Shown here one piece after another: positions 8,496 to 47,860 of a stretch of 64,000 bases of DNA. Numbering within the stretch: the stretch's first letter is position 1; every line of letters starts with the position of its first letter. Source of the stretch: Candidatus Nanohaloarchaea archaeon (GTDB lineage Archaea; Nanohalarchaeota; Nanosalinia; Nanosalinales; Nanosalinaceae); NCBI GenBank assembly GCA_014297435.1, contig JACOQA010000001.1, positions 186,001-250,000 on the forward strand. Direction: 5' to 3'. The notes below the pieces were generated by a model that worked only from the letters and a program-made list of their open reading frames with translations, did not search any database and was not told where the DNA came from. Made by a program: the position numbers and the translations under genes.

Positions 8496-8572
8496 AAGAA
8501 AAAGACCGGTTCCCAATGGTAATCTGGTTTCTAAAAGTAATCCATAAAAGGATGTTTCTACACAGATTAACC

Positions 8573-8920
8573 ATGAGTCAAATGCCTGTGGAATGTAAAG
8601 GCGATAACTGGTGCCCCATCACCGCAACAGCAAACCTGATAGGGAAGAAATGGCATCCTGTGATAATCCATCGTCTGATAGAGGAAGGACCCCATGGCTT
8701 CAACTCACTTAAAGAGGAAATTGGAGGTATCTCAAGCAAAGTACTTTCAGAGAGTCTTGATGATCTTCAGGAAAAGAATCTACTGGATCGAGAGGTTGTG
8801 AGCGAAAAACCTGTGAGGGTTAAGTACAAATTGACGGAAGCTGGCGAATCCCTAGAACCTGTAATTGAGGAAATGCTGGTTTGGGGACGCTCCAACCTGG
8901 TAGAATCAGATACCATATGA
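8573..8920 (+). CDS. HxlR-family winged-helix transcriptional regulator
   Basis: DNA-binding regulator of 115 residues with the HxlR/MarR-like winged helix. The N-terminal CPITATANLIGKKWHPVIIHRL, the recognition segment GISSKVLSESLDDLQEKNLLDREV and the wing PVRVKYKLTEAGESLEPVIEEM are all present. Cys9 and Cys14 near the N-terminus could be redox- or ligand-sensing, as in other HxlR proteins. The start at 8573 is chosen because the homologous region begins there. A TATA-like TAAAAG lies about 27 bp upstream. The stop overlaps the next start (ATGA), so the pair is co-translated. Confidence 0.85.
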   Translation: MSQMPVECKGDNWCPITATANLIGKKWHPVIIHRLIEEGPHGFNSLKEEIGGISSKVLSESLDDLQEKNLLDREVVSEKPVRVKYKLTEAGESLEPVIEEMLVWGRSNLVESDTI

Positions 8921-9348
8921 AACTTAAACGACTGGAGCTGCGAGAAGGCGACAAGGTATTGTTTAACGACAGAAAACAACCTCTCGAAGTCGAGAAAGTA
9001 GAAGACGATAGGGCTCTAATCAAAGGCAGTGGCGGAGGAGAATATGAGATATATGAAGCCGAAGATACAGACGAACTTCTGTTCTGTTCGAGAGGGAAGA
9101 GGCGTTACTCCTCGTACTGCAGAGAACTCAGGAAAGTAGGAGAATGGATAAGAGAAGGGGACAAATGGACTCATACCTCTGGATCTTCAGTAAGACTGGA
9201 GAAGAACGAAATGGGTTACTGGACGGTAGACTCCGAAGATATTGATATAGATCGAGAAATTGACTTGCCGAAATATGGCTATAGTGATAAAGAAGAGGCT
9301 GAGAAGGATCTAGAAAAGATAGTAGGGAAATACCCTGAAGGCTTCTAG
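8917..9348 (+). CDS. Hypothetical acidic protein, 143 aa
   Basis: No family recognised. The N-terminal MKLKRLELREGDKVLFNDR looks like a small beta-rich domain. The rest is acidic and ends in a helical EEAEKDLEKIVGKYPEGF stretch. It is translationally coupled to the HxlR regulator by a 4-bp overlap, so it may be the regulator's partner or target. Its 3' end overlaps the convergent ABC permease gene by 4 bp. Two Cys residues (in LLFCSRGKRRYSSYC) are 13 apart. Confidence 0.65.
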   Translation: MKLKRLELREGDKVLFNDRKQPLEVEKVEDDRALIKGSGGGEYEIYEAEDTDELLFCSRGKRRYSSYCRELRKVGEWIREGDKWTHTSGSSVRLEKNEMGYWTVDSEDIDIDREIDLPKYGYSDKEEAEKDLEKIVGKYPEGF

Positions 9349-10364
9349 AGATCCTGCCTCATGAAAGCCGCATAAGACGCTGTAAACATCAACATAGTCT
9401 GGCTTAACAGGTAAACCAGGTAACCTATAGAGGACATCAAGCTTTCTCTCATAGTCGGTTCCACGCCCTGTTGGTTATAGCTGGTTCCTAGCATGGTGCC
9501 CACATAGTTGCTGTAGCTGGTGGAAGGTGAAAGTCTTGAAACGATCTTCTTGAAGTTCTCTCTCTTCTGCTCGACCTCTTTTCGTTTCTCCTCCCTTTCA
9601 CTTGATCTGCCTATATCAACACCGGTTGACCCGGATACAGCTACATCTGAAGAGACAGCCATGCCTCTTTCTACTGGAACGCTCGGACCGCCACTGCTTG
9701 GAGGAGAGTCATCAAACGTGTAGATGTGGCTGGCAGCTATGTTAGCCAAAAAGGGTGTTGCGAGGAAAGCCAGTAAAAATGCGGCTGAAGCGAGTAGCGA
9801 TCTCCAGCTTGAACGGAAAACTGTTGAGAACAAGGTGCCTAACGCTAAGAAGAAACCTAAATATATTACAGTTCCAAACCACATGAAACAGAGCCTGGAA
9901 AGCTCCTCAACTGTAGGCAGGACGCCTGTCATAAATATTGCAAGACCTGCAGAGGTCGTGAAAGCCATCAAAGATGCAAAAGAAAGTGTAAAGATTCCTG
10001 CAACTAACTTCCCGTTAATCACCTCGTCCCTGTACACAGGATAAGAAAGTAGCAGCTCTATTGTCCCATCCTCCCTTTCCTTGGATACGGCATCATAACT
10101 AAGAAGCAAGGCAAGGAGTGCTGCAGCCAAAGGCATGTTCAACTGCATCATGGGGGCGAAAACATCAATCAAGGAGGGTTTCTCCGGCGCAGGTCCATAT
10201 ACTGAGCCTGAGCGGAAGTCCTCTAACTGCTGCTGGTAGTTGTCCACCCCTATATATACAGAACCTAGTGAGAAAACAAGGAACAGACCTAAAACCATCA
10301 AAAACTTTCTGGAAGAAAAACTATCTCTAACCTGCTTAGCACCTACATCCCATAGAGATCCCAT
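9345..10364 (-). CDS. ABC-2 type exporter permease
   Basis: Membrane subunit (339 residues) of an ABC exporter. It has about six hydrophobic segments and the signature DAVSKEREDGTIELLLSYPVYRDEVINGKLVAG after the second one, which is diagnostic of NosY/ABC-2 permeases. A long extracellular loop of about 90 residues (about 205-295), partly a charged helix, interrupts the last two membrane segments; such loops occur in exporters that handle surface proteins or lipids. It follows its ATPase by 2 bp. With the NEW3-domain protein it forms a three-gene operon starting at 12366. The substrate is unknown. Confidence 0.88.
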   Translation of the reverse strand: MGSLWDVGAKQVRDSFSSRKFLMVLGLFLVFSLGSVYIGVDNYQQQLEDFRSGSVYGPAPEKPSLIDVFAPMMQLNMPLAAALLALLLSYDAVSKEREDGTIELLLSYPVYRDEVINGKLVAGIFTLSFASLMAFTTSAGLAIFMTGVLPTVEELSRLCFMWFGTVIYLGFFLALGTLFSTVFRSSWRSLLASAAFLLAFLATPFLANIAASHIYTFDDSPPSSGGPSVPVERGMAVSSDVAVSGSTGVDIGRSSEREEKRKEVEQKRENFKKIVSRLSPSTSYSNYVGTMLGTSYNQQGVEPTMRESLMSSIGYLVYLLSQTMLMFTASYAAFMRQDL

Positions 10365-10366
10365 TT

Positions 10367-11263
10367 CTAGGCACCTCCGGTTAACTTAAGATAGGCTGTC
10401 TCAAGGGTTTCTTCTTCCAGATCAAACCTAGTGACGGATATATGGTTCTGATTCAGGGTGTCGAACACGTTTGATCTCTTATTCTTCTCTATTTCAAGTA
10501 TAAATGCATCTCTTTTCGATCTGTAGGTGTAATCGTTAGATTCGAGCACTTTCTCCAGCTTTTCAGAGTCTTCTGCTTCTATATGAAGGTTTATGCCTTC
10601 TCCGGTCTCCGAACTCAGCTCGGCTTTAGTGCCTGATGCAACGATTTCGCCATCGAAAAGAACGCCGAACCGGTCGCACAAAGGTTCTATCTCCGTAGTT
10701 ATATGTGAAGAGATTACAACGGTTTTTCCTTTCTCGTCATTGATCTTTTCTACATGTCTTCTGAAATTTCTCTTTCCTTCTGGGTCAAGACCGGTAGTAG
10801 GCTCGTCGTAAATTATTATCTCTGGGTCCTTAATGAGGGACTGTGCAATACCCAATCTCTTCTTCATTCCTGTAGAGAATCCTTTAACATCTCTTTCGGC
10901 GTCATCTGAAAGCCCGACAAGTTCTAGAAGATCATCTATTTCAGGATCGGTGTCTGCAAGCCCTGCAAAGAATTCCAAGTTTTGTCTGGCTGTCATCGAC
11001 TCGTAGAAGCTGATATCTGAAGGCAGATAACCTATTTTCCGCTTAATTTCTTTTCCTCTGTCGTGTTTCTCACCATCTATTCTTATTTTGCCGGCATCTT
11101 GCTTCAGAAGCCCTAAAACTGTCTGAAATAAAGTGGTTTTCCCGACACCGTTGGGTCCAAGAAGACCGAAGATCTCTCCTTTCTCTACCTCGAAGCTGAC
11201 GCCTTTAAGCACTTCATGGCTGCCATAGCTTTTCTCAACGCCCTCCAGTTCTATTGTCGCCAT
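10367..11263 (-). CDS. ABC transporter ATP-binding protein
   Basis: ATPase partner (298 residues) of the following permease. Walker A is GPNGVGKTT, the Q-loop is at YLPSDIS, the signature is GFSTGMKKRLGIAQ, Walker B is EIIIYDEPTTGLDP and the switch His is in VISSHIT. The signature starts with F-S-T-G rather than LSGGQ, common in ABC-2 exporters. A C-terminal regulatory extension of about 80 residues follows. The ATG at 11263 is preceded by a strong GGAGGTG ribosome site. A GTG at 11272, overlapping the upstream stop, is a less likely start. Confidence 0.92.
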   Translation of the reverse strand: MATIELEGVEKSYGSHEVLKGVSFEVEKGEIFGLLGPNGVGKTTLFQTVLGLLKQDAGKIRIDGEKHDRGKEIKRKIGYLPSDISFYESMTARQNLEFFAGLADTDPEIDDLLELVGLSDDAERDVKGFSTGMKKRLGIAQSLIKDPEIIIYDEPTTGLDPEGKRNFRRHVEKINDEKGKTVVISSHITTEIEPLCDRFGVLFDGEIVASGTKAELSSETGEGINLHIEAEDSEKLEKVLESNDYTYRSKRDAFILEIEKNKRSNVFDTLNQNHISVTRFDLEEETLETAYLKLTGGA

Positions 11264-11268
11264 TTCTT

Positions 11269-12366
11269 TCACCTCCTCTGGAATCTCCGGTAGACAAATG
11301 CCATCAAAATAAGGCTGAAGACCATAATGCCTATACCTATCTTGCCAAGACCGCTTTTCCCTCTTATATGAATTCTTATTTGCTTAGGTTCGTCAATAGA
11401 GGTCTTATCCGAGAACGCATTAACTTCTGCGAAGTAGTCGCCTGGCTGGACGTCCTCAGGTACTTCAATAGAGACTCTAATTCGTTCGTTTCCGTACCGG
11501 GCTCTAAGATTGTCGACAACTGAAGGTCTAACCGACCCGCTCCAGGAATCAGGTGTCTCAGCCGTCACATTCACGTTATTTACTTCAGCTTCTCCCCGGC
11601 TCGTAATCCTCATATTTGCCGTTATAGTCTCTCCAGGCTCCCCAACCTTATATCTCTCCTCTACATCTAGCTCAAGCCGTCTATCTTTCTTCTCTCCTTT
11701 AACTTCGATTGTAACATTTTCTTTGGACAGAGTCTTACCTTCGGCAATGAATGTAATGTTATGGAGTCCTTTTCTAGCTCTTTCCGGTATTTCAACACGT
11801 GCGTCCAGTGATTTGGAAGTTTTAGTAGGGACGTCTAGCTCTGTAATGTTAAAATCAGTATGGCTGAATACAACGGGAAGAGTCGAATTTGCTGATAGGC
11901 TGAAGGTCTGGTTTGTGGCGCCTGTGTTCTCAAGCTCCATAGGCACCACAACGTCCTCTTCTCGTGAAGAAACCATTTTTTCAGGGGCAGAGCTCTTTAA
12001 TTTTGAACCTGAGAATATATTCCTATTAGAGTAGACAGTAGTGTTCAGGTAAAGACCTTGAGGATCGCTCTGAATGTTCTTAACATAGATTTCTAGACTA
12101 TGATCTTCAACTGGTATGTTGAAAGGTGCAGCTCCATAGATATTATCGCTTTTGATCTGTCTAAGTATTTCGACCGTTCTCTTCTTCTCGTGTTTTATCT
12201 CAAGATAGTCTTGGTTATCCTCGGAAAAACTGATTATGTAATCATCGAGTTTCTGTGTTTCGCCCGAGTGTAGCTTCATATCATGGCTATAGTCAAGATT
12301 TTGAGCGCTAACAGCAGAAACTGAGCACATTATCAGAACAACAGTTAATACGGCTTTGACCTTCAT
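11269..12366 (-). CDS. Secreted, membrane-anchored NEW3/CARDB-like domain protein
   Basis: Exported protein of 365 residues. A signal peptide (about residues 1-22, ending SAVSAQ) leads into beta-rich repeats. The C-terminal one, with PGETITANMRITSRGEAE and VEVPEDVQPGDYFAEVNA-like strands, resembles the NEW3/NPCBM-associated domain often found beside ABC exporters in archaea. A final transmembrane helix (about 340-358) ends in a basic RRFQRR anchor. It is the first gene of the ABC operon. The start at 12366 fits a leaderless transcript: a TATA-like TTAAAA at 12391-12397 is about 28 bp upstream. The palindrome at 12410-12427 lies just above that box. Confidence 0.78.
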   Translation of the reverse strand: MKVKAVLTVVLIMCSVSAVSAQNLDYSHDMKLHSGETQKLDDYIISFSEDNQDYLEIKHEKKRTVEILRQIKSDNIYGAAPFNIPVEDHSLEIYVKNIQSDPQGLYLNTTVYSNRNIFSGSKLKSSAPEKMVSSREEDVVVPMELENTGATNQTFSLSANSTLPVVFSHTDFNITELDVPTKTSKSLDARVEIPERARKGLHNITFIAEGKTLSKENVTIEVKGEKKDRRLELDVEERYKVGEPGETITANMRITSRGEAEVNNVNVTAETPDSWSGSVRPSVVDNLRARYGNERIRVSIEVPEDVQPGDYFAEVNAFSDKTSIDEPKQIRIHIRGKSGLGKIGIGIMVFSLILMAFVYRRFQRR

Positions 12367-12409
12367 GAAACCGATTAAAACCATCGATGCTTTTTAACTT
12401 TCTATTATC

Positions 12410-12427
12410 GTTCGATATAATTCGAAC
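12410..12427. promoter_or_regulatory. Perfect inverted repeat, candidate operator
   Basis: GTTCGA and TCGAAC half-sites separated by six bases, in the divergent promoter region between the NEW3/ABC operon and the PTPC secreted protein. The centre is 52.5 bp upstream of the start at 12366 and 13 bp above its TATA-like box. The same half-sites and spacing occur before the membrane-bound ArsR-like regulator at 47439, centred 53.5 bp from its start. Confidence 0.6.
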
Positions 12428-12463
12428 CAAGCTTTGTTAGAACCAGACCGAACGAAAACAGTC

Positions 12464-12473
12464 TATTTTAAAT
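12464..12473 (+). promoter_or_regulatory. TATA box for the secreted PTPC protein gene
   Basis: TATTTTAAAT about 25-33 bp before the ATG at 12497, implying a leaderless mRNA and supporting that start over upstream in-frame codons. Confidence 0.6.
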
Positions 12474-12496
12474 CCTGTCGTTTCGTATGGCGTGGT

Positions 12497-13069
12497 ATGA
12501 AAAAACAGATTTTGATCGCATTGATTACAGTTGCGCTCTTGGCTTCAGCCGGAGCAGTAGTTAGAGAGGACGGAACTAGCCCTTCAAACAATCCGGGGGA
12601 AGGTCAGATGGGCATCACATCGGGTGGTGCTGCTGCTTCAGCCACTACTTCGGTAGGACCTAACGGAACACGGTACTCGGTTTCAGTAACCCCAATCAAC
12701 CAGTCATCCAACGTAACTGAGGACAAGGTTCTAGAAGTCTCAGAGTTTCCTCAAGGTGTAAGATTCAACGGATTGGTTAAGTCGCCGACACCTTGCCACA
12801 CATTAAACCACGATGTGGAGAAGAACGGTTCGAAGATTGATCTCAGGATTTACATGGAGTCAAGTAACCAGACATGCACTCAGCAAATGGTTATGAAGAA
12901 GTACCATGCTGAGGTCGAGTCCGAAAACTACTTTGAACTGGACATCTATCACGGTGACTCAAACAAGACAATGGAAACAGTGACCTATGGAGAGAAACAG
13001 GATGAGACAGATGAGGAAACTGAAGAAGATGTAGGGCTTCTTGGATGGATTCTAGGCGTCTTCCTCTAA
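12497..13069 (+). CDS. Secreted PTPC-motif protein (paralogue A)
   Basis: Exported protein of 190 residues with a signal peptide (about 1-20, ending SAGAV), a Gly/Ser/Ala-rich stretch and a beta-rich core. The core has GVRFNGLVKSPTPCHTL, then CTQQMVMKKYHAEV and a last Y-H-G strand. The two cysteines, one in PTPC and one in CTQ about 37 residues later, probably form a disulfide. N-x-S/T sequons are frequent. The end is a very acidic tract followed by a hydrophobic tail (VGLLGWILGVFL) that could insert into the membrane. A paralogue with the same architecture lies at 39451-40062. I know of no established function for this motif family. It diverges from the NEW3/ABC operon. Confidence 0.75.
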   Translation: MKKQILIALITVALLASAGAVVREDGTSPSNNPGEGQMGITSGGAAASATTSVGPNGTRYSVSVTPINQSSNVTEDKVLEVSEFPQGVRFNGLVKSPTPCHTLNHDVEKNGSKIDLRIYMESSNQTCTQQMVMKKYHAEVESENYFELDIYHGDSNKTMETVTYGEKQDETDEETEEDVGLLGWILGVFL

Positions 13070-39450: not shown

Positions 39451-40062
39451 ATGGAGAAGAAAATCCTAGTAACTATTGCCGCTATATCGATTCTTGCCGC
39501 ACCTGTAGCTGCTGACTTTCAAACCAACTATTCATCAAGTTACAGTTATTCTACATCAAGTAACGATCCGAATCAGTCATGGAGCTTCCAAATACAAAAA
39601 ATAGGTGCTTCATGTTCCAACAGCTCGAAAACATTGAGGAACGTAAAGTTCCACGAAGAAGGAGTGAGTTTTGAGGGTGCGCTCGAAGTTCCTACTCCCT
39701 GTAGAATGCTGGAAGCGGACATAGAACAAACCGGCAACAGGACTTTTGCGTTAAAAATAGATTCAGAGCCGACCAAGATGCCGTGCACGCAGTGTGTAGG
39801 ACAGATAAACTATAAACTCTCATTTAATTCTTCCCAACCTTATAAGCTGCGTCCATACCACAAAGGAAAGGTGGTGGAGACCTTTGAACATCCGGATTTT
39901 GATAATGAATCCCGTGAATTCAACCAAACATCGATAACGCCATTAAACCAAACCTCGCTCGATGATCAAACTAATGCGGTTGAAGAGATAGACGCAGATA
40001 ATACTGAGAGAAGAATGAGCGTTTTTGAAGGATTCTTGAATTGGTTCGGGGGTCTCTTCTAG
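39451..40062 (+). CDS. Secreted PTPC-motif protein (paralogue B)
   Basis: Second copy of the family at 12497. It has 203 residues, a signal peptide (about 1-21, ending APVAAD), a Ser/Tyr-rich stretch and then the core GVSFEGALEVPTPCRMLEADIEQTGN. CTQC about 40 residues later and the Y-K-L-R-P-Y-H-K-G strand follow. Compared with copy A the spacing of the Cys pair and the final Y-H-x-G strand is conserved, but CTQQ is CTQC here, and one extra Cys precedes the core. It also has an acidic region and a hydrophobic C-terminus (VFEGFLNWFGGLF). It is convergent with ychF, overlapping by 4 bp. Confidence 0.75.
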   Translation: MEKKILVTIAAISILAAPVAADFQTNYSSSYSYSTSSNDPNQSWSFQIQKIGASCSNSSKTLRNVKFHEEGVSFEGALEVPTPCRMLEADIEQTGNRTFALKIDSEPTKMPCTQCVGQINYKLSFNSSQPYKLRPYHKGKVVETFEHPDFDNESREFNQTSITPLNQTSLDDQTNAVEEIDADNTERRMSVFEGFLNWFGGLF

Positions 40063-46896: not shown

Positions 46897-47439
46897 TTAT
46901 TCCCCGAGTTTCCTCATAGTGTAACCATAAACGAAGCTAACCATTGATATTCCAAAGAGTCCTAGAGCTAGGAATAGGAACAGATCTGCGGATACAAGTC
47001 CGCTTTCGGAAGCTTTCTGCGCCTTTTCTGCTGTATCCATAGCTCCCATTTGGTTCATCGTAGTCATGGCAGAGGCTGCTTCCTCCTGAGCTTTCTGCTT
47101 TCCAAGCTGTGTGAACGAATAAGTCCCTATGCCTAACGCGGCAATTCCTGAAATCGCTGAGCCGGTAAGTGAGAACTTGACTTTTCTTTCTTTTCCGTTT
47201 ACTATCGTTTCAGCTTTTCTCGTAGGCTTGTAAACCACTCGCTTCCGTCCATCTTTCTCGTCTTTTTCGACGAGTTCTGCTTCGTGAAGCTTTGTCAGGT
47301 GAGAGGAGACAGTTGACTTGGACTTGCCTATCTCATTACTTATGCTGGTAGGTGTTGCGTCTTTCTCCATTACGCTGTTTAGTATCCTGATCCTTGTTGG
47401 TGAGGAGAGTGCTTTAACGGCGTTGAAGTCAAGTTCCAT
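46897..47439 (-). CDS. Membrane-tethered ArsR-type transcriptional regulator
   Basis: 180 residues with an N-terminal winged helix (MELDFNAVKALSSPTRIRILNSV, KSKSTVSSHLTKLHEAELVEKDEKDGRKRVVYKPT; about 1-75). Two membrane helices follow (about 90-110 and 150-172), with a Met/Gln/Ala-rich loop between them that lies outside the membrane. No metal-binding Cys is seen, so the sensed signal is probably in the membrane or on its outer face. A perfect palindrome at 47481-47504, just upstream of its TATA-like AAATAAAAG, suggests autoregulation. The same palindrome lies before the NEW3/ABC operon. Confidence 0.85.
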   Translation of the reverse strand: MELDFNAVKALSSPTRIRILNSVMEKDATPTSISNEIGKSKSTVSSHLTKLHEAELVEKDEKDGRKRVVYKPTRKAETIVNGKERKVKFSLTGSAISGIAALGIGTYSFTQLGKQKAQEEAASAMTTMNQMGAMDTAEKAQKASESGLVSADLFLFLALGLFGISMVSFVYGYTMRKLGE

Positions 47440-47480
47440 GATCTAAACTTTCTTAGGGTATCTTTTATTTTTCATATCTG

Positions 47481-47504
47481 TTTGTTCGAGTTGAGTCGAA
47501 CAAA
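47481..47504. promoter_or_regulatory. Perfect inverted repeat, candidate operator
   Basis: Nine-base half-sites TTTGTTCGA and TCGAACAAA flank six bases. The palindrome is centred 53.5 bp upstream of the regulator start at 47439, some 10 bp above its TATA-like box at 47463-47471. The core half-sites GTTCGA/TCGAAC and the 6-bp gap equal those at 12410-12427. Confidence 0.65.
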
Positions 47505-47692: not shown

Positions 47693-47860
47693 ATGGTAGA
47701 CGTACTTAAGAAGTCTGGCGTCCGTGACGCAGCTGACGGAGTCAACGTAGGCTCCGATTTCTATGAAGCTCTAGACGACGAGGTAAAGGACCTTGTAGAA
47801 AGAGCAGTAGAAAGAGCACAGGAAAACGGACGAAAGACCGTCAAGGCAAGAGACGTTTAA
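47693..47860 (+). CDS. DUF1931-type histone-fold protein, 55 aa
   Basis: Compact DNA-associated protein. Its sequence, starting MVDVLKKSGVRDAADGVNVG and ending NGRKTVKARDV, matches archaeal DUF1931 proteins, which share the histone-fold ending R-K-T-(V/I)-x-A-x-D-(I/V/L). The central helix EALDDEVKDLVERAVERAQ is amphipathic. The short length is normal for single-copy members. Strong promoter and ribosome-site signals suggest high expression. Confidence 0.85.
   Translation: MVDVLKKSGVRDAADGVNVGSDFYEALDDEVKDLVERAVERAQENGRKTVKARDV

Follow-up and report, generated by a model that had tools for sequence, protein, structure and literature searches.

Transmembrane transcription regulators (TTRs; CadC, ToxR, and others) combine a DNA-binding domain and a membrane segment in one protein and are widespread in bacteria and archaea (PMC10269533). 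They constitute a broad architectural class without common ancestry, and most are single-pass proteins. Among archaeal one-component systems, ArnR and ArnR1 of Sulfolobus acidocaldarius are membrane-bound and activate the genes for archaellum and pili (PMC6396743). ArnR carries an N-terminal HTH domain, then a cytoplasmic HAMP and sensor region, then two membrane helices, and its boxes (TCGAC-N5-GTCGA) are located just upstream of BRE/TATA (PMC6396743). The TrmB family (TrmBL1, Tgr, VNG1451C), composed of soluble sugar sensors, also uses a palindrome upstream of BRE/TATA at activated promoters; more generally, archaeal activators bind upstream of BRE/TATA and TrmB-family repressors bind downstream (PMC4158304). 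Also relevant are the ArsR/SmtB metalloregulators, which are built on a winged-helix fold.

Nanohaloarchaea are very small, salt-loving archaea that live attached to haloarchaeal hosts, a lifestyle that makes control of the cell surface central to their biology. We analyzed a 64,000-nucleotide stretch of a Nanohaloarchaeal genome (the window), which contains a regulator gene with the following features:

Positions 46897 to 47439, minus strand: membrane-anchored ArsR-type winged-helix regulator, 180 aa (Pfam HTH_5, E = 3.9e-14; hydropathy; AlphaFold model).
Positions 47462 to 47470, minus strand: AAATAAAAG as read on this strand, the regulator gene's TATA box, -31 to -23 from the ATG, from sequence and promoter profile.
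Positions 47481 to 47504 (core 47484-47501), no strand assigned: predicted operator of the regulator gene, TTTGTTCGA-GTTGAG-TCGAACAAA, an extended perfect palindrome and exact match.

The HTH domain spans residues ~1-75 and is followed by membrane helices at ~87-105 and 153-171. Of the ArsR-type winged helix with two membrane helices proposed in a preliminary description of this DNA, the HTH and the clear helix at 153-171 (hydropathy 2.27) stand, while the helix at 87-105 is weak, falling below the hydropathy cut-off in this protein and clearing it in several orthologs. Hydropathy and the positive residues beside both helices place the HTH on the cytoplasmic side. In the AlphaFold model, the winged helix matches the DNA-binding structures of ArsR/SmtB proteins, with NolR, CzrA, SmtB, and BigR as PDB matches; against NCBIfam HTH_metalloreg, the protein scores 50.3 bits, under the 55-bit cut-off. 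Aligned orthologs share 43-52% identity with it, the DNA-binding part being best kept and the outside loop variable. All named relatives (45-58% identity) are from Nanohaloarchaea, and 20 of 28 genomes from the phylum carry the gene in a single copy. Divergent from the regulator gene, positions 47693-47860 encode a 55-aa protein weakly resembling archaeal histones (CBFD_NFYB_HMF, below cut-off), and this histone-like neighbor is also present in genome G007 (L077).

The regulator has the TTR architecture, a DNA-binding domain joined to one or more membrane segments within a single protein, but is two-pass with an ArsR-type domain. The winged-helix fold (Pfam HTH_5) is common to the ArsR/SmtB metalloregulators, from which the regulator differs in its membrane anchor, in an operator position that suggests activation, and in the absence of any cysteine among its 180 residues, which leaves it with no ArsR-type thiol metal site. 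Like ArnR, it has an N-terminal HTH and two membrane helices, and the targets of both are cell-surface structures: archaellum and pili for ArnR; S-layer, beta-propeller proteins, and ABC exporters here. In both cases, an inverted repeat lies upstream of the BRE/TATA of surface genes, although the sequence differs and the box here is single, with a TCGA-to-TCGA spacing of 10 bp as opposed to 11 bp for ArnR (PMC6396743). The HAMP and sensor layout of ArnR is missing, given that only ~12 residues separate the end of the HTH (~75) from the start of the first helix (~87). Moreover, ArnR needs two boxes and is phosphorylated, whereas the regulon described below has one operator per promoter. The regulator would work like ArnR, an analogy that does not assign it to ArnR. 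TrmB-family regulators belong to a different family with different motifs.

The preliminary description had noted that the same palindrome core, GTTCGA-N6-TCGAAC, recurs upstream of an envelope export operon in the same window, and the recurrence was borne out. The second locus contains two divergent transcription units:

Positions 9345 to 10364, minus strand: ABC-2 type permease (Pfam ABC2_membrane_2, E = 2.4e-34).
Positions 10367 to 11272, minus strand: ABC transporter ATPase (Pfam ABC_tran, E = 1.3e-33).
Positions 11269 to 12366, minus strand: first gene of the ABC operon, for a NEW3-domain secreted protein with a membrane helix at its C terminus (Pfam NPCBM_assoc, E = 1.8e-12).
Positions 12390 to 12398, minus strand: GTTAAAAAG as read on this strand, the NEW3/ABC operon's TATA box, from sequence and promoter profile.
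Positions 12410 to 12427, no strand assigned: predicted operator of the NEW3/ABC operon, GTTCGA-TATAAT-TCGAAC, an exact match.
Positions 12436 to 12453, plus strand: predicted operator of the PTPC gene, GTTAGA-ACCAGA-CCGAAC = GTTAGAACCAGACCGAAC, an 11/12 match centered 52.5 nt from the ATG at 12497.
Positions 12466 to 12472, plus strand: TATA box of the PTPC gene (TTTTAAA, -31 to -25), from sequence and promoter profile.
Positions 12497 to 13069, plus strand: PTPC small secreted protein, 190 aa, with a signal peptide, a predicted beta-sandwich, and a conserved Cys pair.

The operator at 47484-47501 is centered 53.5 nt from the ATG at 47439 and that at 12410-12427 is centered 52.5 nt from the ATG at 12366, distances that agree with those reported earlier; both loci have a TATA box. 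The two exact sites were correctly counted, but the third operator, at 12436-12453, had been overlooked. With it, the divergent region (12367-12496) contains a pair of operators spaced by 26 bp, and each is centered 52.5 nt from the start codon of its gene. The earlier judgment that this geometry is hard to explain by chance also holds: the window contains two exact matches, whereas 100 of 100 dinucleotide-preserving shuffles contained none. Across the 1-Mb genome, only four exact sites occur, namely the two in the window, C8:68979, and C8:51986, and the pattern read backwards gives at most one match with one mismatch allowed. The PTPC protein matched no known family, and its fold model gave no significant match to the PDB. 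A further PTPC paralog of 203 aa (window positions 39451-40062; VPTPC motif, C-terminal GLF) has no operator upstream, indicating that the PTPC family is not wholly inside the regulon. The same genome also encodes a second NEW3/ABC operon (L075:5639-9485, contig C10), which has the operator GTTTGATTTCAGCCGAAC at 52.5 nt and comes after a glutaredoxin-like gene and a separate HTH gene.

A genome-wide regulon was assembled from pattern and homology searches. Whole-genome homology searches across Nanohaloarchaea yielded 76 homologs from five unrelated families, of which 64 have TGTTCGR-N6-YCGAACA centered 49.5-55.5 nt before the start codon; 56 of these 64 operators are centered at 50.5-53.5 nt. 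The motif is conserved upstream of both genes named in the preliminary description: 18 of 19 regulator orthologs carry GTTCGR-N6-YCGAAC (match of at least 11/12) centered 49.5-55.5 nt before the ATG, and 11 of 12 NEW3/ABC operons, whose NEW3 homologs were collected in all relatives without using the motif, carry the operator. The other three families were picked because some members had sites, and their members were then gathered by homology alone; operators precede 10 of 11 secreted beta-propellers (PF09826), 6 of 9 DUF4349 membrane proteins (PF14257), and 19 of 25 homologs of the PTPC small secreted family. The PTPC profile was built largely from site-bearing members, and the counts over all members provide the fair test. 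Controls with the gap changed to N5 or N7 or with permuted half-sites reached 10/12 at the operator position in 0-4 of 463 genes from the same stretches. Across 28 genomes, the N6 gap yielded 42 sites, compared with ~10 for every other gap length between 0 and 14 (Poisson P ~1e-13), and most exact sites are placed where surface-protein genes start, not at random positions. Among more distant HTH relatives in archaea, a two-helix HTH gene of another archaeal family (L027, genome G031) is preceded by an operator (GTTCGCCGATGACCGAAC, 11/12, 51.5 nt). Given that this genome lies outside the order, the circuit is suggested to be older than Nanohaloarchaea, although L027 is the sole exception, with no such operator upstream of the other distant relatives (L151-L170).

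Alignment of the 64 promoters refined the motif to TGTTCGRT-N4-AYCGAACA, of which the promoter-proximal half-site is more conserved. The operator sits directly upstream of BRE/TATA and ends 13-14 nt before the TATA box (TTWWAAA), which begins at -30/-31 from the start codon; this is the placement of the archaeal upstream activators TrmBL1, Ptr2, and TFB-RF1. A TATA box at -30/-31 points to leaderless or nearly leaderless transcripts, and the operator-bearing promoters are probably leaderless. No BRE consensus was found in the targets or in other genes, and the target TATA boxes are strong.

Our favored reading, to which we assign a probability of about 0.72, is that a membrane-tethered, self-regulating one-component factor, predicted to act mainly as an activator, uses the palindrome as its operator and controls a regulon of surface genes. 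The link originally proposed between the ArsR-like membrane regulator and the envelope ABC operon is supported and withstood both refutations named with it: the operator is conserved in position at both genes in relatives, and most exact sites are not randomly placed. Weighing against the favored reading are the regulator gene of G012, which lacks an operator of its own, the nonstandard geometry of the S-layer sites, the weak first membrane helix, and the operators of genomes in which no regulator was detected (both described below). From the observed operators, their placement and conservation, and the membership of the regulon, we infer that a dimer of cytoplasmic winged helices would bind TGTTCGR-N6-YCGAACA ~53 bp before the start codon while anchored in the membrane. 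The regulator would control its own gene and the NEW3/ABC, beta-propeller, DUF4349, and PTPC genes, and variably S-layer and MacB/CARDB/FtsX operons. Because the operator lies just upstream of BRE/TATA, it would mainly activate by aiding TBP/TFB binding, with positive autoregulation, and the trigger would be a membrane or envelope state sensed via both membrane helices and the short external loop. A bolder version, which we put forward tentatively, holds that a self-activating membrane-embedded factor senses the state of the membrane, the S-layer, or contact with the host and switches the surface in a coordinated way from fixed-spacing operators in leaderless promoters, forming a dedicated Nanohaloarchaeal envelope circuit. 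The regulator type, a membrane-bound one-component factor, is already known. The regulon appears undescribed in the literature searched, of which targeted searches with incomplete coverage found no Nanohaloarchaeal regulon. Here, regulator, operator, and surface-protein regulon are predicted jointly from sequence, and the promoter geometry varies very little. This renders a surface-control circuit testable in hard-to-culture Nanohaloarchaea; the operator and the protein are small enough for direct tests.

The same regulator and regulon could instead operate mainly by repression. ArsR-family proteins are mostly repressors, and negative autoregulation is common; bound upstream of BRE, the protein would block TFB until an envelope signal released it, and would repress its own gene. 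The nearest structures (NolR, CzrA, and BigR) are those of repressors, and promoters with such strong TATA boxes might not need an activator. The position of the operator argues the other way, as it lies ~13 nt upstream of the TATA box and not over TATA, BRE, or the start site. In characterized archaeal cases, an upstream position goes with activation (PMC4158304; for ArnR, PMC6396743), and Pyrococcus promoters regulated by CopR, in which the motif is directly upstream of BRE, are up-regulated (PMC7830388). On balance, we view a predominantly repressing role as rather unlikely.

The operator could also belong to another transcription factor, with the membrane-anchored HTH gene as only one among its targets. 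The genome encodes other HTH proteins, such as an HxlR protein at 8516-8920, and operators are kept where no regulator ortholog was detected: G004, which is 98% complete, yet has an operator at its PTPC gene, and the less complete genomes G022, G024, G025, and G027. Against this reading, exact sites are commoner in regulator-bearing genomes (16 of 19, compared with 2 of 8; P = 0.006, a value that overstates independence because the genomes are related), and the regulator gene is the most consistent operator carrier of all families. In G005 (L264, C3:324130-324415), a decayed, frameshifted copy of the regulator gene lies beside a DUF4349 gene with an intact operator; the decay could be gene loss or an assembly error, and the arrangement is consistent with recent loss of the regulator. 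Control by a different factor is accordingly judged improbable. That the palindrome is a chance or structural feature of DNA or RNA (hairpin, terminator, or tRNA T-loop) with no regulatory role is hardly conceivable: a few trivial matches resemble tRNA T-loops (e.g., C1:95952 and L099) and several one-mismatch sites lie inside coding sequence, but the shuffles, gap scan, and positional controls rule out the chance and terminator readings, the distance to start codon and TATA box is fixed, and a site upstream of TATA lies outside the main transcript.

The predicted regulon is wider than the preliminary description proposed, extending to beta-propeller, DUF4349, PTPC, S-layer, and MacB/FtsX genes, and almost all of its products are secreted or membrane proteins. 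The constant members are the regulator, the NEW3 protein with the ABC ATPase and ABC-2 permease, and the PTPC, beta-propeller, and DUF4349 proteins. In G006, G013, and G023, the DUF4349 gene is divergent from the regulator gene and the two genes have one operator in common; no operator lies upstream of the DUF4349 gene in the window's own genome (C8:246058). The exact site at C8:68979 in that genome precedes genes for a MacB-type ATPase, a CARDB/NEW3 protein, and FtsX permeases, with the TATA box at the usual spacing and the ATG at 65.5. This operon was considered as a core target and rejected, as an operator is present in only 3 of ~16 relatives examined, which makes it a variable member.

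Another four exact sites, which have no gene at the standard distance, precede an S-layer gene in G000, G006, G008, and G009, with the gene identity (S_layer_C, PF05124/TIGR01564) checked in two of the four. The distance from these sites is 390-543 nt to the ATG and 165-296 nt to the TATA box, so the standard geometry is not applicable there. The S-layer leader of ~200 nt contains a conserved block around GGGATCCCG; it had no match in Rfam, and a structured leader RNA is unsupported beyond one short helix with little covariation. The block TGAACGGTTA, which lies ~40 nt ahead of the TATA box of the S-layer gene, is shared without change by four genomes (L073:6987-7534, on contig C8 of the window's own genome, L080, L085, and L089).
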